Below are positions 30,056-43,126 of a stretch of 64,000 nucleotides of DNA, piece after piece (position 1 is the stretch's first letter; every line of letters starts with the position of its first letter). The DNA comes from Giesbergeria sp. Its GTDB lineage: Bacteria; Pseudomonadota; Gammaproteobacteria; Burkholderiales; Burkholderiaceae_C. Made by a program: the position numbers and the translations under genes. The notes below the pieces were generated by a model that was not told the origin of the DNA, did not search any database, and saw only the letters and a list, made by a program, of their open reading frames with translations. The stretch covers positions 1 to 64,000 of the forward strand of contig NZ_JAQUCA010000002.1 in the NCBI RefSeq assembly GCF_028686475.1, in the 5' to 3' direction.

Positions 30056-31852
30056 ATGCGTGCTTTGTTTCTTTCTTTTCTCTGTGCAGCGGCCCCCGTT
30101 TGGGGCGCGCATGGCTATGCACTCTGGGGCCAGCCCCAATACCCAGCGGGCTTTAGCCATTTCAGCTACGTCAATCCGCAAGCGCCCAAGGGGGGCGAGT
30201 TGCGTTTGGTCAGTAACTCGCGTGCCTCCACCTTTGACAAATACAACCCCTTCACCATCAAGGGCAATGCCCCGGCTTATCTGCCGCAGTTGTTGTTTGA
30301 TTCTTTGTTGCTAGGCTCTTTGGATGAAACCGCCACCGCTTACGGCTTATTGGCCGAAGATGTGAGCGTAGCGCCCGATGGCTTGAGTGCCACCTTCCGC
30401 CTGCGCCCCGAGGCCCAATTTCACCACGGCAAGCCGGTGCTGGCGCTGGATGTCAAACACAGCTTTGACACCCTGATTGGCCCGCACACCTCGCCCGCCT
30501 ACAAAACCATGCTCATCGACGTGGCCGGGGTGGATGTGTTAGACGAGCGCACGGTGCGCTATCGCTTCAAAAAACCGAACCGCGAATTACCGCTCACCGT
30601 GGGTGGTTTGCCAGTATTTAGCCGCGATTGGGGGCTGAACGAACAAGGCAAGCCCAAACCATTCGACCAAGTGGTGATGGATATCCCCTTGGGCAGTGGC
30701 CCCTACAAAATTGGCCCGGTGCGCTTTGGCAAAGACATCACCTATGTGCGTGACCCGCACTATTGGGCTAAAGACCTGAACGTGCGCCGGGGCAGCGCCA
30801 ATTTTGACCGCATTACCGTCAAAATCTACAAAGATGCCACGGCGCGGCTCGAAGCCCTCAAAGCTGGCGAGTTCGATTTGATGCGTTTTTTCAGTGCCGG
30901 TGATTGGGCGCGGCGCGTGAATGGCAAAAAATTTGACAGCGGCGAGCTGGTGAAAGGCGAGTTTCGCCACCAATTGCCAGCGGGGTTCCAAAGTTACGTC
31001 CTCAACACCCGGCGGCCTTTGCTGCAAGATGTACGGGTGCGTGAGGCGCTGGGCTTGGCGGTTGATTTTGAGTGGATGAACCGGCAAATGTTCTACAGCG
31101 CTTATGCCCGTGTGAATGGCTTGTTTGGCAATACCGCCTGTGCCGCCCAAGGCCAGCCCTCAGCGGCAGAGCTGGCGCTAATGCAGCCTTGGCGCAGCCA
31201 TTTACCCGCCGCCGCTTTTGGCCCCATGACCGTGCCACCGCGCACCGATGCCCCCCATTCTTTGCGTGGCAACCTGCGCCGGGCGCAACAACTGCTGCAA
31301 GACGCTGGGTGGGAGGTGCGTGATGGCGCTTTGCGTAACGCCCAAGGCCAAGCGCTGGTGCTGGAATACATGGACAGCAACGAAGGCGGAATGCGTACCG
31401 TGGCCCCGTGGATGCGTAATTTAGAAAAATTGGGCATCACGCTGCGTTTCCGTTCGGTGGACTTTGCCCTGTACCAACAGCGCTTGCAAAAATTTGACTT
31501 TGACATCACCAGCATTGCCTATGGTGGCACGCACAACCCCGGCCAAGAGTTTGCTGACTTGTTTGGCAGCCAAGCCGCCGATACCGAAGATTCAGGCAAT
31601 TTTGCGGGCATTAAAAACCCGGCAGTCGATGCCTTTATCACTGCCATGACTGCTGCCAAAACCGAAGCCGAGTTGTTGCCCGCCTGCCACGCCCTAGAGC
31701 GTGCCATCGCCCATAGCCATGTCCTCATTCCGCAATGGACGGCCCCGACGCACCGTATGGCCTACAACGCTTGGCGGCTGGCGCTGCCAGCTACCGTGCC
31801 GCCCTATACCAGTGGTGAGGGCTGGGTGATGGATACTTGGTGGGCGCGTTAA
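30056..31852 (+). CDS. yejA: Extracellular solute-binding protein of a peptide ABC transporter (YejA-like)
   Basis: The 598-residue periplasmic family 5 binding protein starts MRALFLSFLCAAAPVWGAHGYA, a signal peptide with probable cleavage near residue 20. The mature part opens LWGQPQYPAGFSHFSYVNPQAPKGGELRLV, as in YejA, and includes STFDKYNPFTIKGN and GPYKIGPVRFGKDITYVRDPHYW. YejABEF imports oligopeptides, including microcin C in enterics. The matching permease and ATPase genes are not adjacent but start at 42095, after the defence island. It ends WVMDTWWAR. Confidence 0.88.
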   Translation: MRALFLSFLCAAAPVWGAHGYALWGQPQYPAGFSHFSYVNPQAPKGGELRLVSNSRASTFDKYNPFTIKGNAPAYLPQLLFDSLLLGSLDETATAYGLLAEDVSVAPDGLSATFRLRPEAQFHHGKPVLALDVKHSFDTLIGPHTSPAYKTMLIDVAGVDVLDERTVRYRFKKPNRELPLTVGGLPVFSRDWGLNEQGKPKPFDQVVMDIPLGSGPYKIGPVRFGKDITYVRDPHYWAKDLNVRRGSANFDRITVKIYKDATARLEALKAGEFDLMRFFSAGDWARRVNGKKFDSGELVKGEFRHQLPAGFQSYVLNTRRPLLQDVRVREALGLAVDFEWMNRQMFYSAYARVNGLFGNTACAAQGQPSAAELALMQPWRSHLPAAAFGPMTVPPRTDAPHSLRGNLRRAQQLLQDAGWEVRDGALRNAQGQALVLEYMDSNEGGMRTVAPWMRNLEKLGITLRFRSVDFALYQQRLQKFDFDITSIAYGGTHNPGQEFADLFGSQAADTEDSGNFAGIKNPAVDAFITAMTAAKTEAELLPACHALERAIAHSHVLIPQWTAPTHRMAYNAWRLALPATVPPYTSGEGWVMDTWWAR

Positions 31853-31939
31853 TTAAATAACGTTACTATTGCAATTCGTGAATATCGAGACAGCCGCCTT
31901 GAAATCCTGGGCTATTCAGACCCCCCACCGGAGTGCAGC

Positions 31940-32239
31940 ATGAGCAGCCAACTTACCCTGCCCACCCCCGGCGAAATCCTCGCTACCGAATTTCTGGAGC
32001 CACTGGGCATTACCCAATACCGCTTGGCCCAATCCATCCATGTGCCCCAAACCCGCATCGCCGCCATCGTCAAGCATGGCCGAGCCATCACCGCCGACAC
32101 GGCCTTGCGTTTGGCGCGCTTCTTTGGTACTTCGGTTGAGTTCTGGCTAAACCTGCAAAGCCAGTACGATGCCGACACCGCACGTTTAGCGCTGGGCGCG
32201 GAACTGGAGGCCATCCAGCCTTTGGCTGCTATGGCATGA
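31940..32239 (+). CDS. HigA-family antitoxin-like XRE regulator
   Basis: The 99-residue protein begins with PTPGEILATEFLEPLGITQYRLAQ, then RIAAIVKHGRAITADTALRLARFFGTSVEFWLNLQ. This is the typical HigA/VapI helix-turn-helix domain. HigA proteins repress their own operon and neutralise HigB RNase toxins, whose genes normally lie just upstream. The 87 bases between yejA and this gene do not encode a recognisable HigB, so it appears solitary. It is the first gene of the block that separates yejA from yejB. Confidence 0.85.
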   Translation: MSSQLTLPTPGEILATEFLEPLGITQYRLAQSIHVPQTRIAAIVKHGRAITADTALRLARFFGTSVEFWLNLQSQYDADTARLALGAELEAIQPLAAMA

Positions 32240-32466
32240 GCTGTCGTCGTACCTCACTTGGTCGCACTCACTCGCTGTATTACGAGCGCACCCCCATTTA
32301 GTACCCAGCGGGTACTGAATTGATGCCGCAAGGGCTACAAGGCTTTTCACGGCGCTGGCCACGGGCGAGTCTTGCCATCAAGGCACCAGGCAGCAACAAA
32401 TTACACCAGAGGTGGGCGCGCTAAACATATAGAAACTTTGGAGCGCAAACAGGTCGAATCTATCAA

Positions 32467-32485
32467 GTACGTTAAACTACCGTAC
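32467..32485. promoter_or_regulatory. Possible operator of the TacA/TacT-type module
   Basis: GTACG (32467-32471) and CGTAC (32481-32485) form a 5-bp inverted repeat around a 9-base AT-rich centre, 13 bases before the antitoxin ATG. Antitoxins of this class bind palindromes at their own promoter. The arms are short, so this is tentative. Confidence 0.35.
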
Positions 32486-32498
32486 AAAGGAGCCTGCC

Positions 32499-32771
32499 AT
32501 GACCGCCGCCACCGCCCGTTTAGACCTTCGCCTAGATGCTCACGACAAGCACCGCATCGCCAAGGCCGCCGCGCTGCGCGGGCTGCCCGTTTCGGCCTTT
32601 GTGCGCCAAGCGGTGCTGCGCGAGGCAGACAACGCTATCGCCGCCGCTGCGGTGGTGATGCTGTCTGAGGAAGAGTCGCGCCGCTTCTTGGCCGCGCTCG
32701 ATGCCCCTTTTCAGCCCAATGAACCCCTGCGCCAAGCCATGCAGAACGCCGCCGCACTGGTGCCCCGCTGA
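32499..32771 (+). CDS. DUF1778 (TacA-type) ribbon-helix-helix antitoxin
   Basis: The 90-residue protein has the DUF1778 pattern ARLDLRLDAHDKHRIAKAA then ALRGLPVSAFVRQAVLREA near residues 4-45, and a C-terminal tail with EEESRRFLAALDAPF that typically wraps the toxin. AAGGAG lies 7 bases upstream of the ATG. The GNAT toxin gene follows after 3 bp. It should repress the pair and block the acetyltransferase. Confidence 0.88.
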   Translation: MTAATARLDLRLDAHDKHRIAKAAALRGLPVSAFVRQAVLREADNAIAAAAVVMLSEEESRRFLAALDAPFQPNEPLRQAMQNAAALVPR

Positions 32772-32774
32772 GTT

Positions 32775-33266
32775 ATGGCGCTGCACTTTGCCTTGCTGGA
32801 TGCCCGCTTGCACCAGCGCAGTAGCTTTGCCAGTGGTGTAACCGCCCTAGACAGCTACCTGCAACAACGCGCCAGCCAGCATCAGCGCGACGGCATAGCC
32901 ACCACCCATGTGCTGATAGACAGTGACAACCCTGCGCGCATTTTGGGTTACTGCACTTTGTCTGCCGCGCAACTGACCCTGAGCGCACTACAAGAGGCCG
33001 ACCGCAAAGGTCTGCCTGCTTACCCTGTGCCCGCAATGCGCGTTGGCCGATTGGCGGTGGCCGCTGCCGAACAGGGCAAGGGATACGGCCAGCTGCTACT
33101 AGGCCATGCAGTCAACTTGGCCCTGTCGCTGCGGCAAACCTTGGGGGTGCGCGTGCTGGTGGTAGATGCCAAAGACACCCCAGCAGCCCTTTTTTACCAG
33201 CGCTACGGCTTCACCCAGACATCGGAAAACGCGCTCACGCTCTATCTACCGCTGGGGCGGGTGTGA
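32775..33266 (+). CDS. GNAT acetyltransferase toxin (TacT/AtaT type)
   Basis: The 163-residue acetyltransferase has the acetyl-CoA loop VGRLAVAAAEQGKGYGQLLL near residue 90 and the late ALFYQRYGFTQ motif near 140, whose tyrosine is catalytic in this family. With a DUF1778 partner such enzymes acetylate the aminoacyl group of charged tRNAs and stop translation. The start ATGGCGCTGCACTTTGCC was chosen by spacing to the antitoxin. It ends 36 bp before zorA. Confidence 0.87.
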   Translation: MALHFALLDARLHQRSSFASGVTALDSYLQQRASQHQRDGIATTHVLIDSDNPARILGYCTLSAAQLTLSALQEADRKGLPAYPVPAMRVGRLAVAAAEQGKGYGQLLLGHAVNLALSLRQTLGVRVLVVDAKDTPAALFYQRYGFTQTSENALTLYLPLGRV

Positions 33267-33302
33267 ACGTTTGCTACGGCCCACGAACCTTGTGAAATTC
33301 AG

Positions 33303-35693
33303 ATGCAAATACTTTTTAGTTTTTTGACAACCAGTCCCGAGGCGGTAGTTTTTGTTGTTCTGTGCATATTTGCATCTGCTTTGGTTGCATATTTCAAGTG
33401 GTACAAGCCAAAAAATGAAAAAATCCTTGAAGAAATAAATAGGCTGTCCACTGAGTTGACAAAAAAAGACCAAGACTGGAGAGAAATTGAAAAGCATTTA
33501 CATGAAACTATTGAATCATATCCGCATATAAAAGACGCATGGCGTGAAACTGAAGGTAGGGTTATTAAAATTTCCACAGCTGGTAATAATAAATATTTAA
33601 TGTATGGAATGCCTCGGGATTTATGGAATGCTTCGGGTCTATTATCTAGAAATTTCAATTTAGCTTTGGCCGAGGCAGTGCCAAATATATTGGTAGGTAT
33701 TGGTTTATTTTTTACATTTTTGTTTTTGTCTTTGGCATTGATAGGCACTACTACCGCGCTCACTGACGCATCGTCTTCCAAAGACACTGAAGCTGCAATA
33801 AGTCAATTGCTCAAGATTGCTGGTAGTAAATTTTTAACCTCCTTGGCTGGTTTATTGGCTTCGATTTTATGGACAATATTTTTTCGGCGTTCAATCAATA
33901 AAGTGTCAGAGGCTTGTGATGATTTCTTGTTAGCCCTAAGCAAGGTGATTTCACCTGCTGGTGGTGAAAATATTACTTTGCATCAATTGGCAGTAGCTGA
34001 TGAAGCCTTGAAATCAGGTAGCGATAGTAAGATGTTGGCTGAAGAATTATTAAAGAAAGTGCGCGAAGTAACTGATCAAAGTTTGCATTCGATGAACGAT
34101 AGTAACGCACTGACCGAAGAGTTATTGAACGAGGCCCGTGAACAAACTGGAACTTTCAAGCGCTTTGAAACTGATTTAGCGGTCTCATTGGCTAGTGCCA
34201 TCAATCAAGCTTTTACCCCACAAATGCAGGCCATGACCGAGCGTCTAGTCGCATCGATTGAGGGCTTGAGCGAAAAAATGGGCACGATGAACCAAGAAGC
34301 ACTCAAAACAATGCTGGATGATTTTGCTGGGATGCTCAAGCAAGCCACTGATGCTGAAATGACGCAGTTGCAGCAAACTCTACAAGACCTGAGTAATCAG
34401 TTGCACGGTGCAGGGTCAATGTTGGAAATTCAATCTGGCATGGCTGCTAATGCTATTTTGAATGCCGGGGTAGAAATGCAGACCCAATTGAAAGGGGCTG
34501 GTGATACGTTGAGCGCCCAGACGGCTGAAGTAGCCACAGTGATTCAAACCGCAGGTACGCAACTGGCGGCATCTACGCAGGAAATGTCAGAAAACCTAGT
34601 ACAGGGTGCCCATCAGCTGGAGCAAGCCACCGCTTCTATTAGGCTTGGCTTCAAAGATTTAGGTGAAGTGGTAGAGCTGGCCTCTGCCAAGGGCAAAGAA
34701 GGTATTGCACAAATTCATATTGCCCTCGAAAAAGCCGATTTAACGGTGACACAGCTTTCTCAAACGGCCTCCGGCCTGTCTGAGACCGCCCAAGGCTTGG
34801 TCGAAACAGGCGCTTTGGTCAGTAACATGGTGGACAACGTACAAGAGTTGGCGCGTGAACAACGGGCTGTAGTGCTTTCAGTCAGGGAAGTGGTGCCCAA
34901 TGCCATGGCCGCAGTGCAGCGGGTGACGGAAGTGCTCGATCAGGCGGCAGCGCAAACACTGTCCAGTATGCAGCAGACCCACCAAGCGATGGAATCTACC
35001 GCTACAGCACTGGGTAAAACCGTTGGCTCGATTACTGAGGGTGCCGGTGTCTTGGCGGTACGTACCCAAGAGATGTCAGAAAACTTGGTACAGGGGGCCC
35101 ATCAGCTGGAGCAAGCTACTGCTTCTATCAGGCTTGGCTTCAAAGATTTAGGTGAAGTGGTAGAGCTGGCCTCTACCAAGGGCAAAGAAGGTATTGCACA
35201 AGTTCATATCGCCCTCGAAAAAGCCGATTTGACGGTGGCACAGCTTTCTCAAACGGCCTCCGGCCTGTCTGAGACCGCCCAAGGCTTGGTCGAAACAGGC
35301 GCTTTGGTCAGTAACATGGTGGACAACGTACAAGAGTTGGCGCGTGAACAACGGGCTGTAGTGCTTTCAGTCAAGGAAGTGGCCCCCAATGCCATGGCCG
35401 CAGTGGAACGGGTGACAGAAGTGCTCGATCAAGCAGCGGCGCAAACACTGTCGAGTATGCAGCAGACGCGCCAAGCAATGGAATCTACCGCTACGACACT
35501 GGGTAAAACCGTCGGCTCTATTACCGAAGGTGTCGGCGTCTATTCCACCCAAGTGGCCGAGCTGCATCGCCAAATGGACGGGCAATTGGCCAAGGCGGTT
35601 GGCAGCTTTGACCAAGGAGTAAAAGACTTGAGTGAAGTAGTGGAAGAATTGACGGAAAGTCTTCAGTCCACTGTTAAAACTGTCAGGAGGTAA
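33303..35693 (+). CDS. zorA: Zorya system motor subunit ZorA with duplicated tail
   Basis: ZorA is the MotA/ExbB-like subunit of the proton-driven inner-membrane motor that triggers Zorya anti-phage defence. The 796-residue protein has a membrane segment at about 14-34, a MotA/TolQ/ExbB-like region with helices near 122-152 (VPNILVGIGLFFTFLFLSLA) and 178-200 (LTSLAGLLASILWTIFFRR), then about 590 residues of helical, Gln/Glu/Ala-rich tail. The tail holds two nearly identical 163-residue units in tandem (nucleotides 34575-35063 and 35064-35552). The first 750 bases are AT-rich, and the duplicated part is more GC-rich. It overlaps zorB by one base or abuts it. Confidence 0.93.
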   Translation: MQILFSFLTTSPEAVVFVVLCIFASALVAYFKWYKPKNEKILEEINRLSTELTKKDQDWREIEKHLHETIESYPHIKDAWRETEGRVIKISTAGNNKYLMYGMPRDLWNASGLLSRNFNLALAEAVPNILVGIGLFFTFLFLSLALIGTTTALTDASSSKDTEAAISQLLKIAGSKFLTSLAGLLASILWTIFFRRSINKVSEACDDFLLALSKVISPAGGENITLHQLAVADEALKSGSDSKMLAEELLKKVREVTDQSLHSMNDSNALTEELLNEAREQTGTFKRFETDLAVSLASAINQAFTPQMQAMTERLVASIEGLSEKMGTMNQEALKTMLDDFAGMLKQATDAEMTQLQQTLQDLSNQLHGAGSMLEIQSGMAANAILNAGVEMQTQLKGAGDTLSAQTAEVATVIQTAGTQLAASTQEMSENLVQGAHQLEQATASIRLGFKDLGEVVELASAKGKEGIAQIHIALEKADLTVTQLSQTASGLSETAQGLVETGALVSNMVDNVQELAREQRAVVLSVREVVPNAMAAVQRVTEVLDQAAAQTLSSMQQTHQAMESTATALGKTVGSITEGAGVLAVRTQEMSENLVQGAHQLEQATASIRLGFKDLGEVVELASTKGKEGIAQVHIALEKADLTVAQLSQTASGLSETAQGLVETGALVSNMVDNVQELAREQRAVVLSVKEVAPNAMAAVERVTEVLDQAAAQTLSSMQQTRQAMESTATTLGKTVGSITEGVGVYSTQVAELHRQMDGQLAKAVGSFDQGVKDLSEVVEELTESLQSTVKTVRR
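34575..35552 (+). repeat. Tandem 489-bp duplication inside the ZorA tail
   Basis: Two copies of 489 bp (34575-35063 and 35064-35552) encode 163-residue segments beginning TQEMSENLVQGAHQLEQATA and ending near GKTVGSITEG. The copies differ at only a small number of positions, for example SAKGK versus STKGK, SVREVVPNAM versus SVKEVAPNAM, and AAVQR versus AAVER. Exact in-frame length and high identity at silent sites point to a recent duplication. Confidence 0.95.
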
Positions 35694-35695
35694 TG

Positions 35696-36490
35696 ATGTC
35701 TTGGCATGGTTATCGCCCGCACCAAGCCCCTGATTCTGCTGGTTCCAGCGTGGAGCAGGGATACATGGCTTCCACTGCCGATTTAATGGTCGGATTGCTG
35801 TTCATTTTCATCATCATGGTGGCCTTTTTGGCGCACAAAAGAAACACTGAAACTGAAGCACTCGCCGCTGAAGCCAAGGCTTTGGCGACTGCCGCGCAAG
35901 AAGCGCGCACCGCGTTCAGTGATCCACGAGGTGCTGTCACTAGCGCCATTGGCGAGCAAATCCGCCAAACCCTTGCTACTGTGCGTATTGACCCCTCCAG
36001 CGGAATTATCAGCCTGCCTGAAGATGTGTTGTTTGATTTGGGCAGTTCGACCCTCAAGCCAGCAGCACAGCCTAAACTAATCGAAGTAGCAGAAAAGTTG
36101 GGCACAGTATTGCCTTGTTTCGTGGCTAATCAGCGTAAGCAGCAGGGTTGTACCAATAACCCTTACGGACATGAAGTTGAAACCATATTTATCGAGGGGC
36201 ATACCGACAATGTGCCTATGCTACGCGATGGAGGTAATACCAAATTGTCCCTCGATCGGGCTATTTCGGTAAGTAATGCACTGGTGCAGGGCACCCCATT
36301 GGCTGGCTATCGCAATGATCAGGAGTTGCCCCTGTTTTCATACAGTGCATACGCTGATTCACGGCCATTGAAGGGAATCGCGCCCTCCGATGGCCGCAAC
36401 CGCCGCGTGGACTTGCGTATTGTTCTGACTTATCGACCTCATGACGAAGCCGATTTTTTAGAACGCATGGGTAAGCATTTGAGCCGTTGA
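35696..36490 (+). CDS. zorB: Zorya system subunit ZorB (MotB/OmpA-like)
   Basis: ZorB pairs with ZorA to form a peptidoglycan-anchored proton channel. The 264-residue protein has one membrane helix near 28-46 (STADLMVGLLFIFIIMVAFL), with the essential-type aspartate at residue 29. A linker and an OmpA-like peptidoglycan-binding domain follow (FDLGSSTLKPAAQPKL near 118, FIEGHTDNVPM near 164, DGRNRRVDLRIVL near 233). AGGAGG ends 5 bases before this ATG; the ATG at 35693 would be only 2 bases away and less likely. The gene overlaps or abuts zorA and shares a base with the zorC start, implying coupled translation. Confidence 0.93.
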   Translation: MSWHGYRPHQAPDSAGSSVEQGYMASTADLMVGLLFIFIIMVAFLAHKRNTETEALAAEAKALATAAQEARTAFSDPRGAVTSAIGEQIRQTLATVRIDPSSGIISLPEDVLFDLGSSTLKPAAQPKLIEVAEKLGTVLPCFVANQRKQQGCTNNPYGHEVETIFIEGHTDNVPMLRDGGNTKLSLDRAISVSNALVQGTPLAGYRNDQELPLFSYSAYADSRPLKGIAPSDGRNRRVDLRIVLTYRPHDEADFLERMGKHLSR

Positions 36491-37896
36491 TGGAATACGC
36501 TATGTTTGCTCCGTTGCCCACTAAAATGGAAAAGCTGGAGGCCGTTTTGCTGCAAATAAATGCAGTAACTGTCCAAACACCGCCGCCTTTTGTAGAAATC
36601 GGCAAAAAACTACGCCTAGCATACGAGCAACAGCGCACACAAGACTACCAATTGTTGTCTAAAAGCGACTGGCGGCAATTACCCTATGCCTTGTGGGTTA
36701 AAGGTATGCTAGCGCTCTATGAAACTGACCCAATTTTACTGAACCGTTATTGGTCAGAAGTTTTACCCGAAGCATTGCAAAGCAGCCCCAGACGCGCCAA
36801 GCGTTGGCTAATACCTTTATTCTTTGTCTATTGCAATGGGTTTGACCCGGAGAGTATTGCATTTCGGGGTTTTGCGGCCAAGCTGCGCCAAGTTTTGCAA
36901 TTGGCACAAGGCGCGATGGCTGCCAAAATGCGAGAAATGGATGAGCGACAGGATTTTTTTAATCCAATTCGCGCACCTGTAAATCTTGCCAGCTTGTTTT
37001 TTACGCTGCACCAAGTCCATGAAGATGAATTGATGGGTGCCTATTTGTTCTGGCCTGGATTTGAGGGCACAGGGTTGGGTACGGCTATTTTGCGTGCTGG
37101 TTTGCAATTGCCGCTAGACCAGCTGCGTGAGCTCGCCACGGTACAGCGGGTGATGAACTGGTTACAGAAGATGCCAGCGCCCGTGGTCAAAACCGATTTA
37201 CGCATTGCCTTTGCCGATGGATTGCTTTTGCCGTGGCAGCACAACCGCAAGATGCAGGATGGATTGAAAAAAATACTGCTCACATTTTTCTTGCAGCAAT
37301 ACGGTGATCCACGTTTTTTGCGCCATGCCAATTACCAGTGGGAAGGTGTAAATCCAGACGCTGTGCATGTGATGCACTACTTGCTCACAGGCGATACCCT
37401 CAAAGGATTTATGAGCATCTTGGAGCGCACGGCTGATGATATTTGGCGCTACCGACAAAAATTCTGGATGGCTTATTACGATGCCGGTCATATTGAAGAG
37501 GCTTGGATGGTTTTGGGTGCCCATGCCCAGATAGCGGCAAAGAGCAACAACACTAGCGCAGTCCCGCAACGCTTTGGGCGGCTGGAAGGTGGTGCCGCTC
37601 CAAATCAATCTGTTTTGCTGCTACGCATAGGTGATCTGGTTTTTTCAGAGTGGAGTCATAGTGGCAGTTTGCGCGCCTACCCTGAAGATGATTCAGATGC
37701 TCCCAGCTTTTACCAACTCAGCTACCACGGACAGACATTGCGAGAAGCGCAATCACTGGATTTTCATGATGGGCTCAATATGCGGCCCGAACTGCGCCAT
37801 ACCCATTCTGAACATGGAACATGGCAACGCAAAGCGCGTGACATGATTCGTCAGCGCACAGGGATTTACCTCGGTGATTGGGAAATTCTGTTGTGA
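36490..37896 (+). CDS. zorC: Zorya type I protein ZorC (EH-signature domain)
   Basis: This 468-residue cytoplasmic protein of the EH_Signature group is shared by type I Zorya systems. The C-terminal signature is visible: LLRIGDLVFSEWSHSGSLRAY near residue 375, the PSFYQLSYHGQTL region, then HTHSEHGTWQRKARDMI near 436. ZorC is thought to bind DNA and act with ZorD once ZorAB senses phage. The ATG uses the last base of the zorB TGA; the TTG one codon earlier is less likely. Its 3' end overlaps zorD by 4 bases. It looks shorter than the E. coli protein I recall, so it may be a divergent form. Confidence 0.88.
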   Translation: MEYAMFAPLPTKMEKLEAVLLQINAVTVQTPPPFVEIGKKLRLAYEQQRTQDYQLLSKSDWRQLPYALWVKGMLALYETDPILLNRYWSEVLPEALQSSPRRAKRWLIPLFFVYCNGFDPESIAFRGFAAKLRQVLQLAQGAMAAKMREMDERQDFFNPIRAPVNLASLFFTLHQVHEDELMGAYLFWPGFEGTGLGTAILRAGLQLPLDQLRELATVQRVMNWLQKMPAPVVKTDLRIAFADGLLLPWQHNRKMQDGLKKILLTFFLQQYGDPRFLRHANYQWEGVNPDAVHVMHYLLTGDTLKGFMSILERTADDIWRYRQKFWMAYYDAGHIEEAWMVLGAHAQIAAKSNNTSAVPQRFGRLEGGAAPNQSVLLLRIGDLVFSEWSHSGSLRAYPEDDSDAPSFYQLSYHGQTLREAQSLDFHDGLNMRPELRHTHSEHGTWQRKARDMIRQRTGIYLGDWEILL

Positions 37897-40718
37897 CTTT
37901 GGCCATCGCGCACCGCGAAGCAACCAGCGTGACATGGGCACTGCCATGCACAGTAGCGCAGTGGTTTGAAGCCTTGCCCACCCATGCCGCTGCCGCGTTG
38001 TCGGTTTATTTAGCCGATCACCCCGCCGATTGGCAAGCCGCCACGCTCACTGTTCCTGCGGCGGTAGTGGCTACTTGGTCAGCTGCAGCTGCAGCTGCTT
38101 TGGGCTTGCCGCCCAATGCGCCGTTGGGTTTTGACCTGCGCCTGAGTGGTGCGCTGGGCAAGCCCGGGGCCAGCATTACGGTGCGTTGGTTGCAGCCGGG
38201 CAAGACGATGGCTGCCCGCGATGTGCAAGCTAATGGCCTATGGCTTACATGGCAAGATAAGCCCTATCGCATTGCCTCGCCTATGTTCGATGTGCTGGGT
38301 TTGGTGGAGCAGTTCAACCAGTCAGGCCGTAGTGGGCATGAGGAGCAGTTCCGCATTTGGGCACATATCCGTCAGACCTTGGGCGATACGGCGTCTGACC
38401 AGTTGACCGATGGTTTTTTGCGTAATCTGCGCGTAGTGACGGCAACGGCGCTGACCTTCGCCATCAACACCGATAGCCACGGGGATGTGCAACTTGATCC
38501 GGTGCTGTTGTCTGCCCGCCGCGCTGATGAAGGCGATGGCACGCAGCAGGTGCGCGCCTTGCTGGAGGGAGATGAAGCGCTGTTTTCCAAGCGGCTGGAT
38601 CAGTTGCCTAGTGGCGCTTCGGCCTTTGCTCTCCATCAGGGTACTTACGTGGTGGTGGATGAGCCGCTACAGCAGGCACTGGCTGCCGTGCAACAGCTGC
38701 GGCGTGCGCCCGCACAGGTGCGTAAACGCGCTGCCATGTACCCCGAGGCGGTATTGCGCGAGTTCATGGGTGCAGAAGACACCGCTCCCACGGTATTTGT
38801 CGAAACCGAGCGCTTTGCCGAGCGGGTGCGCGATGTGGGCGAGTGGCAGGCACCACTGTTGCCGTGGATCAAGATTGACCCGCAAAGTTGGGGCGCACCC
38901 GTGGCCGCTGGTGTACGGCTGGGCGGTGTGGAGCTGCCCTTGGACATCGCAACGCTGGAGCGGGCGCTGAGCGATATGCAAACCGCTCTGGCAGAAGGGC
39001 AAAGCACCATTGCCATTGCTGGCCAAGCCGTGGCGGCTACCCCGGCCAATGTCACAGTGTTACAGCAGCTGCACCGGGTTATGACCCGGGAGGAGGGGGG
39101 CCAGAAGCCGCAAGATGGAGGTTCTGAGGCCGTGAAAAACGTCCTCATTATTGAAACCAATCTGGATGAAACCTCTTTTGCGCGTACCACCACCGGCCAG
39201 CGTCTCGGCCAGCAGACGCTGCCTTTTGGGTTGAAAACCCGCCCCAAAAAGCACCAAGAATTTGGCATCACTTGGCTGCAGCGGCATTGGTGCCAAGGCT
39301 CGCACGGTGCCATGCTGTGCGACGACATGGGCTTGGGAAAAACTTTTCAGGCGCTGGCCTTTTGTCTTTGGCTGCGCGAACAGATGGAGGCTGGGCACAT
39401 TGCCACCAAACCCTTGCTTTTGATTGCACCGGTGGGCTTGCTCCGTAATTGGGAAGCCGAAATCAATGCCCATTTAATGGCACCCGGTCTAGGCAACTTG
39501 GTACGGGCCTATGGCGAACATCTCAAACCCCTCAAGCGCGGCAGGCACAGCGATGGCACGGCGGGCTTGGACACTGCACGCTTGGGCTCTGCCGATGTGG
39601 TGCTGGCCAATTACGAGGCTGTATCTGATTACCAACTGAGCTTTGGCGCGATACCGTTTGCTGCCGTGGTACTGGACGAAGCGCAAAAAATCAAATCACC
39701 CAAGGCCCGCATGACCCACGCGGTCAAAGCCCTGAACGCTGATTTTGTGTTGGCCATGACCGGTACCCCGGTAGAAAACCGGCTGGCCGACCTGTGGTGC
39801 ATTGCCGATGCCGTGCAGCCCGGTGCATTGGCAGACTTGAAAGACTTCAGCGCCCGTTATGAAACCGAAGGCGCTGACGTGCAAGCGCTGCGCCAGCTGG
39901 TGTGGCACGGCGAAGACCACGCCCCCAGTCTGCCGCCCCGCCTTTTGTTGCGGCGTATGAAAACTGAAAAACTCGATGGCCTGCCTGACAAGCACGAGCA
40001 TGTACTGACCGTGCCCATGCCAGCCCGACAGGCTGAGGTGTACCAGCGGGCTCTAGCGCTGAAGGAGGCCGCAGGTAGCTACACTACGCTGGAAATGATC
40101 CACGCCCTGCGCCAAGCCTCTTTGCATCCGGCATTGCTAGAGGGCGGCATGGGCAATGCCGAACTGCAGTTTGAAGATTCTGCCCGCTTCATGGCGATGG
40201 TGCAGGTGCTAGATGCCGTGGCCCGGTGCAAGGAAAAAGTGCTGGTTTTTCTCGAATCGCTGGACTTGCAGCAAGCCGACCAATTGCCGCTGCTGTTGCA
40301 GCGCCGTTACGGCTTGCAGCGCGCGCCTATGGTGATTAACGGTCAGGTTCAGACTGAAGCCCGCCAGCAGAGGGTGGACAGGTTTCAGCAGGAAGTCGGG
40401 TTTGATGTGATGCTGTTGTCGCCCAAAGCTGGTGGCGTGGGTTTGACCTTGACTGCTGCCAACCACGTTATTCACCTGTCACGCTGGTGGAACCCTGCGG
40501 TAGAAGACCAATGTTCAGACCGCGTGTACCGTATTGGGCAGACCAAGCCTGTGCATATCTATTACCCGTTAGCCGTGGTGCCTGGTGCGGAGGCACACAG
40601 CTTTGATGTGCAGTTGCAGGCATTAATGAATCGCAAACGGAAGCTGGCGCAGGATTTGTTGGCGGCACCAGCGTTTTCGACACAAGACTATCAAGAGCTT
40701 CTTTCCTCGATAAACTAA
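37893..40718 (+). CDS. zorD: Zorya type I helicase-nuclease ZorD (SNF2 family)
   Basis: ZorD is the SNF2-type ATPase/nuclease effector of type I Zorya. The 941-residue protein has a poorly conserved N-terminal half and a C-terminal helicase: Walker A CDDMGLGKTFQALAF near residue 475, FAAVVLDEAQKIKSPKARM near 591, MTGTPVENRLADLWCI, SPKAGGVGLTLTAANHVI and DQCSDRVYRIGQTKPVHIYYP near 872. The GTG at 37893 overlaps the zorC TGA and was preferred over the TTG at 37878. It completes the zorABCD order that defines type I. Confidence 0.92.
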   Translation: MTLAIAHREATSVTWALPCTVAQWFEALPTHAAAALSVYLADHPADWQAATLTVPAAVVATWSAAAAAALGLPPNAPLGFDLRLSGALGKPGASITVRWLQPGKTMAARDVQANGLWLTWQDKPYRIASPMFDVLGLVEQFNQSGRSGHEEQFRIWAHIRQTLGDTASDQLTDGFLRNLRVVTATALTFAINTDSHGDVQLDPVLLSARRADEGDGTQQVRALLEGDEALFSKRLDQLPSGASAFALHQGTYVVVDEPLQQALAAVQQLRRAPAQVRKRAAMYPEAVLREFMGAEDTAPTVFVETERFAERVRDVGEWQAPLLPWIKIDPQSWGAPVAAGVRLGGVELPLDIATLERALSDMQTALAEGQSTIAIAGQAVAATPANVTVLQQLHRVMTREEGGQKPQDGGSEAVKNVLIIETNLDETSFARTTTGQRLGQQTLPFGLKTRPKKHQEFGITWLQRHWCQGSHGAMLCDDMGLGKTFQALAFCLWLREQMEAGHIATKPLLLIAPVGLLRNWEAEINAHLMAPGLGNLVRAYGEHLKPLKRGRHSDGTAGLDTARLGSADVVLANYEAVSDYQLSFGAIPFAAVVLDEAQKIKSPKARMTHAVKALNADFVLAMTGTPVENRLADLWCIADAVQPGALADLKDFSARYETEGADVQALRQLVWHGEDHAPSLPPRLLLRRMKTEKLDGLPDKHEHVLTVPMPARQAEVYQRALALKEAAGSYTTLEMIHALRQASLHPALLEGGMGNAELQFEDSARFMAMVQVLDAVARCKEKVLVFLESLDLQQADQLPLLLQRRYGLQRAPMVINGQVQTEARQQRVDRFQQEVGFDVMLLSPKAGGVGLTLTAANHVIHLSRWWNPAVEDQCSDRVYRIGQTKPVHIYYPLAVVPGAEAHSFDVQLQALMNRKRKLAQDLLAAPAFSTQDYQELLSSIN

Positions 40719-40774
40719 CCAAGTTTCTATTGAACATCGAAGCATAATTTTTAACAATTTTATTGAGTATAAAA

Positions 40775-42085
40775 ATGTGTAACGCTCGAAACCATCCCCC
40801 GGGTTGCAACTGTGGTTGGGGAGGAGGCTGGCACAGTGGTGGCTATGGCTCTTCGGGTGGCCATTCTTCGTTTTCTTTTAGAGAACTCAACGCTTCAAGA
40901 ATGCTTTCCAACATTAGCTATTCATCGACTCCTGTACCGGTCGCTTCCACACCCCGCAAAAATATGAATACCAATGCTCTCAGTGGTCCTTGGACAGAGC
41001 CCAATGCCAGCTGCCCAGTGTGTGGGCAAGGAGTATATTTTTGCCAGACCGAAAATGGCGGTCGGGTTTATTTTGATGAGTTGGGGCCACCGTGGCCGAA
41101 GCATGTTTGTACTGACAACGTAGAAAATAGAACGGCTGCTTACTCAGGGGGAAATCGTTGGGATAGACAGGGGTGGCAGTCATTGCAAAATTTTAATGTC
41201 ACCATTACAGGACGAAATGAGGGTTTTTTGGTGCGCGTGCATGGCGAGGATGAACATCGGAAGGAAAGAAAATTCTTTGCTCAGATTGCAGATGATGTGC
41301 AGTTTGATATTTTTAGATTTCTTCCTAGTGAGGTGACGACACTAAGCGAGCCTATGGGAGCGAGGCGGGAAAATTTTCAGTATTATCCAGTTAGTGAAGC
41401 TAAATCCACGACAGTTGTGGGTGATTACTTATCAATATTGGCGCATAATAAACGTGGAGAGTTCCTTGTTTATGAAGGATTTGCTGGGCCGGGTAAAATT
41501 TATGATTTAAGAATAAAAGATTTTAGTGAGAGTATTGATTCAGAAAACGGGTCTATTTATAGCGAATATTTATCTGAATTTTTTAAAGATTGGAATTCGC
41601 AGAAGCCGTGGAGCGCAATCTCAAATTTAAAAATTAATTCGGTAAGCGGTAATCTTTATAAAATTAGTGGGAATACAAATGCAGGAGATGTTGTTTTTCA
41701 GATTAGAATGGATGAATTCTATTTGGTGCGATACGCAAGATTTGAAATATTCGGTGTAAATTCTGCAGTAGTTTCGCTGGTGGTAGAAAAGTCCGAAGAT
41801 TCAGATAATTTTTATATATTGGAGGGTAGTGCTAGTTTAGGAAAATCTTTTCCGCCTGGAAAAAAGTTGGAAATTAAAGAGGTTCTATCAAAAAATAAAA
41901 AAGATAGTACGCCAACACATTTGGATTCAATAGCAGTGCATGAAAATATTCAGGTTGATGTTTTGAATAGAGTGAAAGCCATTGATTTGGAAATAAATGA
42001 ATTGCTTGCAAAAATAGCTACTCTCAATCAGGAAAAAACCAAATTGATAGAAAAATTGGTCAGTCAAAATTCTGTTTTGGATTGA
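40775..42085 (+). CDS. Unrecognised Cys/His-rich protein downstream of zorD
   Basis: I do not recognise this 436-residue protein. It opens MCNARNHPPGCNCGWGGGWH, with Cys at 2, 11 and 13 and His7, then a Gly/Ser-rich stretch. A second likely zinc site has C80PVC83, C90 and H110-V-C112, near a GGRVYFDELGPPWPKH segment. The middle (about 120-390) is AT-rich and beta-like. The last 40 residues (LEINELLAKIATLNQEKTKLIEKL) look like a coiled coil. It starts 56 bp after zorD on the same strand, has the low GC of the zorA 5' part, and ends 9 bp before yejB. It may be an accessory part of this Zorya locus or simply a passenger. Confidence 0.75.
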   Translation: MCNARNHPPGCNCGWGGGWHSGGYGSSGGHSSFSFRELNASRMLSNISYSSTPVPVASTPRKNMNTNALSGPWTEPNASCPVCGQGVYFCQTENGGRVYFDELGPPWPKHVCTDNVENRTAAYSGGNRWDRQGWQSLQNFNVTITGRNEGFLVRVHGEDEHRKERKFFAQIADDVQFDIFRFLPSEVTTLSEPMGARRENFQYYPVSEAKSTTVVGDYLSILAHNKRGEFLVYEGFAGPGKIYDLRIKDFSESIDSENGSIYSEYLSEFFKDWNSQKPWSAISNLKINSVSGNLYKISGNTNAGDVVFQIRMDEFYLVRYARFEIFGVNSAVVSLVVEKSEDSDNFYILEGSASLGKSFPPGKKLEIKEVLSKNKKDSTPTHLDSIAVHENIQVDVLNRVKAIDLEINELLAKIATLNQEKTKLIEKLVSQNSVLD

Positions 42086-42094
42086 GCCATAAGC

Positions 42095-43126
42095 ATGTTT
42101 GCCTACATCCTCAAACGCATTTTGTTAATGCTCCCCACGCTGCTGGGCGTGCTATTGCTCACCTTTATCGTTTTGCAATTTGTGCCCGGTGGCCCGGTAG
42201 AGCAGTATCTGGCCGAAGCCAAAGCGGGTGCCGGTGGTGGTGGGGCCGAAGGGGGCGGTTTGGCTTACCGAGGCGCGCAGGGGGTCGATCCCAAGCGCCT
42301 AGAACAAATCAAGGCATTGTATGGTTTTGATAAACCGGCGCACGAGCGCTTTGTGCAAATGCTGGGCCAGTTTGCTCGTTTTGATTTAGGGCGCAGCTTT
42401 TTTCAAAACAAAGATGTCTGGCAGCTGATTGTAGAAAAATTACCAGTTTCTATCAGTTTGGGCCTCTGGACGTTTTTTATCAGCTATTTGGTGGCTGTGC
42501 CCTTGGGTATCGCCAAGGCGGTGCGCGCTGGTTCGCGCTTTGATTTAATTACCAGTTTATTGATTTTGGTCGGCTACGCTATTCCGGGTTTTGTGTTAGG
42601 GGTGGCTCTGCTGGTTATATTTGGCGGCCAGTTACAATGGTTTCCGCTGCGCGGTCTCACCTCGGCCAACTGGGAAGAATTATCATGGGGCGCACGCATC
42701 GTTGATTATCTTTGGCACATTACTTTGCCTATCACTGCGATGGTGTTGGGTAGTTTTGCAGTTACTGCCATGTTAACTAAAAATGCCTTTTTGGAAGAAA
42801 TACGCAAGCAATATGTACTGACAGCACGCGCCAAAGGCTTGTCCGAGCGGCAGGTGCTGTATAAACATGTGTTTCGCAATGCCTTGATTCCGATTGTGAC
42901 CGGATTTCCCGCAGCGTTTATTGGTGCTTTTTTTACCGGTTCTTTGTTAATTGAAACTTTATTTTCCCTCGATGGCCTAGGTTTATTGAGTTTTGAAAGC
43001 GTTATTCGGCGCGATTATCCGGTGGTGCTAGGCACCTTGTACCTGTTCACATTGCTAGGCTTGGTTACCAAGCTCCTCAGCGATATTTGCTATGTTTGGG
43101 TGGACCCTCGTGTCAAGTTCGATTAG
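42095..43126 (+). CDS. yejB: Peptide ABC transporter permease YejB
   Basis: The 343-residue inner-membrane permease starts MFAYILKRILLMLPTLLGVLLLTFIVLQFVPGGPVEQ, as in YejB/DppB proteins. It has about six helices and the ABC-permease EAA-type loop RKQYVLTARAKGLSERQVLYKHVFRNALIP near residue 245. It forms a heterodimer with YejE. It begins 9 bp after the Cys/His-rich gene, with no room for a typical leader, so its own promoter was probably displaced or lies inside the island. Confidence 0.92.
   Translation: MFAYILKRILLMLPTLLGVLLLTFIVLQFVPGGPVEQYLAEAKAGAGGGGAEGGGLAYRGAQGVDPKRLEQIKALYGFDKPAHERFVQMLGQFARFDLGRSFFQNKDVWQLIVEKLPVSISLGLWTFFISYLVAVPLGIAKAVRAGSRFDLITSLLILVGYAIPGFVLGVALLVIFGGQLQWFPLRGLTSANWEELSWGARIVDYLWHITLPITAMVLGSFAVTAMLTKNAFLEEIRKQYVLTARAKGLSERQVLYKHVFRNALIPIVTGFPAAFIGAFFTGSLLIETLFSLDGLGLLSFESVIRRDYPVVLGTLYLFTLLGLVTKLLSDICYVWVDPRVKFD

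Follow-up and report, generated by a model that had tools for sequence, protein, structure and literature searches.

A tandemly duplicated 163-residue tail module in ZorA of a type I Zorya system from Giesbergeria sp.

In Zorya phage defence, the manner in which a signal passes from wall sensing to the effectors through the ZorA rod is unsettled. According to the passages of PMC11890865 that deal with ZorA, the tails of this protein form a pentameric rod that is required for defence, which is abolished both by deletion of the whole tail and by point mutations in it. In the stretch of DNA analysed here (64,000 nucleotides from Giesbergeria sp., hereafter the window), the tail part of zorA contains two in-frame, tandem copies of a 489-nt segment, which raises the questions of how old this duplication is and what it would do to the rod.

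The Zorya operon and its genomic site

The operon comprises four genes on the forward strand: zorA (33303..35693), whose 796 aa product has a MotA-like motor part and a long tail (PADLOC ZorA1, E=8.3e-27); zorB (35693..36490), with an OmpA-type domain (PF00691) and Asp30 (E=5.8e-55); zorC (36487..37896), with an EH_Signature domain (PF15611; E=1.3e-73); and zorD (37878..40718), an SNF2 helicase with DDMGLGK at 482, DEAQ at 600 and an RIGQ motif (E=2.1e-275). The frames are adjacent or overlapping, and the operon is intact and in frame. As each gene matches its PADLOC type I profile, the operon is by these profiles a type I Zorya system, and the first-pass annotation was correct in naming the gene as zorA. 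The ion-channel aspartate D30 of ZorB is invariant in four of four aligned sequences, and the OmpA domain is of the peptidoglycan-binding type, binding itself being predicted. The curated NCBIfam cut-offs are missed by ZorA (100 bits, E=8.3e-29, against 190 for NF033914) and by ZorD (349 against 1500 for NF041790), these being narrow models which the ZorA of Variovorax, encoded beside zorB-zorC-zorD homologues, also fails (99 against 190). The plasmid-encoded zorA1 of E. coli (729 aa, WP_004182103.1) shares with the window the order zorA-zorB-zorC-zorD and a motor with a long tail, but has no comparable internal duplication (its best self-match scores 54, and shuffles reach 55), and the window ZorA lies far under the NCBIfam cut-off for the E. 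coli zorA1 type (36 bits against 750). Solved ZorA chains of 495, 434 and 280 residues are on record, being truncated versions of the protein from E. coli.

The operon lies between yejA and yejB, which are 10,242 bp apart in the window (31852-42095). Among 26 genomes of the genus, 18 have a yejB match, and 11 relatives' loci were compared: in eight of these the yejA match ends 30–122 bp before yejB, while the distance is 910 bp in a ninth (L071) and 1,256 bp in a tenth (L075), and the remaining locus (L072) has no yejA within the stretch covered. Since the interval is near-empty in most of these loci, the Zorya operon was probably acquired at a variable site. The interval further holds an HTH gene (31940-32239), which presumably resembles HigA antitoxins, a TacA-like antitoxin gene (32499-32771; PF08681) followed by a GNAT protein gene (32775-33266), the two probably forming a TacAT-type toxin-antitoxin pair beside the operon, and, 3′ of zorD, a 440-residue frame (40763-42085) for which Pfam, PADLOC, PHROGs and the compared loci gave no match other than the window's own. 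Third-position GC is 0.32 for the motor-encoding part of zorA (33303-33977), 0.54–0.55 for the tail units (34563-35540), 0.65 for zorD and 0.33 for the 440-residue frame; on the difference between motor part and units, zorA may be a mosaic composed of pieces from two sources.

Limits and age of the duplicated tail unit

The best-scoring segment at offset 489 places unit A at 34564..35052 (residues 421-583; codon phase 34563-35051) and unit B at 35053..35541 (residues 584-746), both on the forward strand, and Tandem Repeats Finder reports a period of 489 bp across 34584-35541 (score 1692). The self-match of the window ZorA scores 732, whereas 20 shuffles of the tail reach 57 at most. The in-frame tandem duplication described in the first-pass annotation is thereby confirmed, although its limits (34575-35552) were set 11 bp too far downstream. 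The duplication lies 3′ of the motor and 5′ of the conserved tip, and in an alignment with single-copy relatives many columns are invariant in the tail segment ahead of the units (34116..34340; residues 272-346), as are columns in the single-copy tip (35520..35690; residues 740-796), which overlaps unit B by its opening residues. At the breakpoints, the longest common run within 12 bp of both sites is 5 bp, and 200 random pairs average 5.2, so that no recombination site can be named. A weak 25-residue self-match elsewhere in the gene (33993-34136; residues 231-278; 17/48 identical, score 64, shuffles up to 57) is possibly an older and smaller duplication in the tail.

An alignment-based search of genome contigs retrieved three zorA loci, from Variovorax sp. 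CF079, a Rubrivivax MAG and Roseateles toxinivorans, all of which keep the order zorA-zorB-zorC-zorD and encode a ZorD 62–67% identical to that of the window. Their ZorA proteins (574–601 aa as translated) contain one unit where the window has two: each aligns to the window ZorA with a single 163-column gap, and the unit region is exactly 163 residues and gap-free in each, indicating that the duplication added 163 residues. The window ZorA carries further insertions near residues 245-270 and 398-425, and the relatives differ by additional small insertions. Neither copy stands out as ancestral by the sites shared out of 163, the three relatives sharing 60, 65 and 45 with unit A and 62, 66 and 44 with unit B.

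Searches elsewhere added little to this set. No close relative was added from genome contigs and viral contigs with a single ZorA protein, from plasmids (three records at 25–31% identity) or from phages searched with the Polaromonas ZorA. At E<=1e-20 the order and class searches matched one of 399 and one of 369 genomes, each the window's own, and the genera of the Rubrivivax MAG (1/15 genomes) and of Roseateles (1/3) returned the starting genome itself. The family search matched 13 of 399 genomes, and a second draw 8 of 364, all already in the first.

The two units differ at 38 of 489 nucleotides (92.2% identity), 25 of these at third codon positions, and 151 of 162 residues are identical in the proteins. 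The description of the units as nearly identical in the first-pass annotation therefore holds for the protein only, as silent changes occupy 26 of about 122 synonymous sites (Nei-Gojobori over the whole unit: dS 0.25, dN 0.034, dN/dS 0.135). These differences also bear on the possibility of an assembly artefact: the genome is a draft in 65 contigs, but a false duplication would be expected to yield identical copies, and the 38 differences, with the frame kept in both copies, rule such an error out as far as can be judged, leaving it an extremely small probability. A higher number of units may, in turn, have been collapsed in the assembly.

As a yardstick for age, silent divergence was compared with that of neighbouring genes, a comparison across different genes that provides a rough clock only: for yejB, dS is 0.97 and 0.90 between the window and two of its nearest sampled relatives and 0.31 between these two, and for yejE it is 0.86 between the window and one such relative. 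At 0.25 overall and 0.38 outside an identical block described below, the copies are about as distant as two species of the genus. A recent duplication event, as proposed in the first-pass annotation, is rejected on this distance; judged on its silent sites, the duplication is older than claimed, and its copies, which differ mostly at such sites, appear partly homogenised.

The differences are unevenly distributed, with none in 135 bp (34750..34884 in unit A, identical to 35239..35373 in unit B, both forward) and all 38 in the remaining 354 bp. A run of this length was matched in one of 20,000 shuffles (p=5e-5; third positions alone, p=0.0012), and synonymous differences are distributed unequally between block and remainder (Fisher p=1.1e-4). 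Outside the block, dS is 0.38 (34563-34700), 0.18 (34701-34751) and 0.45 (34881-35051), or 0.38 when pooled. The simplest reading is that the block is probably a gene-conversion tract, formed between the copies after they had diverged.

Patchy divergence with a 135-bp identical stretch would, however, also be expected of two recombining alleles. Were the duplication recent, an unequal crossover of two diverged zorA alleles could have joined units that already differed, in which case the 7.8% difference would reflect old allelic divergence and not the time since duplication. This reading gains from the apparent mobility of the system, which is absent from the 25 other genomes of the genus save for one weak match (two of 26 genomes in the genus search, the window's own and one at E=3.9e-4), and from the mosaic composition of zorA. 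Against it, no second close allele was found in genome contigs, viral contigs or plasmids (nearest 48% protein identity), the single-protein scans among these reaching close relatives only. We regard such a crossover as unlikely and favour an old tandem duplication with later gene conversion.

Repeats and length among ZorA tails

To place the duplication among other ZorA proteins, 23 tails were screened for internal repeats: ten hand-picked from family, plasmid and contig matches, the 12 frames over the NCBIfam cut-off in a phylum search (12/392 genomes) and the ZorA of a Nitrosospira plasmid (L067). One locus (L048), with 171 masked residues out of 732, was for that reason left out of the count, and untested ZorA matches, L008-L010 and L066 among them, stand outside it. 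A self-match above twice the shuffled maximum was obtained in three of the 22 readable tails, namely the window (732 against 57), the ZorA of Polaromonas naphthalenivorans plasmid pPNAP01 (221 against 66) and that of locus L041 (125 against 52). The window alone has a large, near-identical duplication, while the other two have old, diverged repeats. The Polaromonas protein (L034 944-3262; 773 aa) resembles the window in its internal tandem tail repeat, 73 residues long, but matches a different NCBIfam ZorA subgroup (NF033916) and has old, diverged copies (46/123 identical); the repeat of L041 is likewise 73 residues long (31/106 identical). That these repeats span 20.0 turns was rejected as support for a conserved register since the figure is circular, being measured on the repeated sequence itself.

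Below the cut-off, three frames (L043, L044 and L057) had no self-match above twice the shuffled maximum, while 12 of 12 others (L051-L056, L058, L060-L062, L064 and L065), many being segments of very long frames, exceeded it, indicating that repeats are common in such longer relatives. Locus L063, also outside the count, gave a self-match of 135 against 37 in shuffles.

The ZorA profile NF033914 also led to giant, repeat-rich frames of about 2,400–4,200 residues (L080 613-13086, reverse strand; L081; L082 3108-12983, forward; L083 2536-10434, reverse; L084), those of L081 and L084 running to the end of the stretch taken, in genomes of the same phylum as the window but of another class. N-terminal pieces of the L080, L082 and L083 frames gave no Pfam domain. 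Of two neighbouring frames at L052 and two at L083, three carry iron-transport or signalling domains, the fourth lacks any domain match, and an OmpA/MotB domain occurs in none of them. As judged from these few neighbours, the giant frames are probably not Zorya systems.

In the sets tested, the shortest ZorA has 567 residues and the longest frame, counted from stop to stop, has 836. As stop-to-stop frames without such a duplication measure 791–836 residues and the window's own measures 808, its ZorA lies within the natural range of length. This spread, together with the small further insertions among the relatives, is what would be anticipated if ZorA tails simply tolerated extra coil and their length drifted neutrally, with no measurable effect of the added unit. 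Against such drift, which is compatible with an old duplication, stand the low dN/dS between the copies, unless this ratio predates the duplication, and the constancy of zorA in E. coli, where a match was obtained in 87 of 5,426 genomes: among the 60 listed, 58 are in a single piece with spans of 2,180–2,186 nt and two are partial. These rows give no sign of a change in tail length, but the E. coli ZorA in question lacks such a repeat. On balance, drift is a serious possibility to which we give somewhat less than even weight. The number of units might also vary between strains like a molecular ruler, as the first-pass annotation suggested; the genus comparison covered one genome per species, and this zorA occurs there in the window's own genome, with one weak match in another.

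A longer rod may instead have been selected because it alters the reach of the signal or the place at which ZorC and ZorD are recruited. The low dN/dS, the single state of the tip and of the proximal segment, and the diverged repeats in two other ZorA tails are all consistent with such tuning, which is equally compatible with an old duplication and which we propose only tentatively, with less conviction than drift. The first-pass annotation had stated that tail length is reported to matter for defence: the need for the tail is indeed described in the passages of PMC11890865 cited above, but a graded effect of length was not found there, nor was a report of graded ZorA tail length found among the matches listed, as far as their titles and the beginnings of their abstracts tell.

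Coiled-coil register and the length of the rod

Among known systems, chemoreceptor signalling domains resemble ZorA in being rod-like coiled coils, with length classes that differ by in-register insertions. They differ from ZorA in not being part of a motor and in that their steps are heptads, whereas the step in ZorA is one 163-residue unit. In the unit of the three single-copy relatives, the hydrophobicity period is strongest at 3.530–3.536 residues, exceeding 300 of 300 shuffles in each (for the shuffles, a coarser scanning grid was used). This corresponds to 46.10–46.18 turns per 163 residues, so that an additional copy would be roughly in register. Among 900 random units of 100–220 residues drawn from the same tails, 36% deviate by 0.18 turn or less and thus do as well as the real unit, and the agreement hints only weakly at an in-register insertion. 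In a heptad-register fit, the two copies share their assignment at no more than 77 of 163 positions. How the phase jump at the new A|B junction compares with those at the two old junctions depends on the reference period: at 3.54 it amounts to −19 to −39 degrees and is the smaller one (old junctions, −51 to −72), whereas at 3.6 it is the larger (7 to 50 degrees against −20 to 14).

The AlphaFold model of the single ZorA chain from four sequences was poor (mean pLDDT 51, pTM 0.33), with a tail that was nearly all helix; given this quality, the geometry of the rod is taken from published work on other ZorA proteins. Both copies would fold as helix in a five-stranded rod, and at 1.5 Å per residue the extra copy would likely add about 24 nm to the rod and place the conserved tip farther from the membrane, leaving motor, first tail segment and tip themselves unchanged.

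Taken together, the reading that we hold with moderate confidence is that a type I Zorya system was acquired between yejA and yejB, that a 163-residue module of its ZorA tail was duplicated in tandem long ago, its copies presumably having since exchanged sequence by gene conversion, and that the rod was thereby lengthened with its register roughly kept, which is most likely why the duplication was tolerated. Most likely the published scheme still applies to the system, in which ZorB senses the wall, the motor turns and the rod recruits ZorC and ZorD; a change in defence by the longer rod is possible. We also put forward, as a rather speculative proposal, that the length of ZorA-type rods may evolve stepwise by in-register module duplications which gene conversion keeps alike and capable of expansion or contraction, the ZorA of the window representing a step in progress and the giant frames an extreme.

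The Zorya system itself is known; among the ZorA tails counted, only the present one shows the rod of a phage-defence motor with a large duplication whose copies are near-identical. While the size of Zorya components is called well conserved within each family in PMC11890865, which also speaks of an elongated ZorA tail, the present findings suggest that ZorA varies in size more than this statement implies. A natural ZorA with a doubled module, beside relatives with one, makes the influence of rod length directly testable without recourse to a designed rod.
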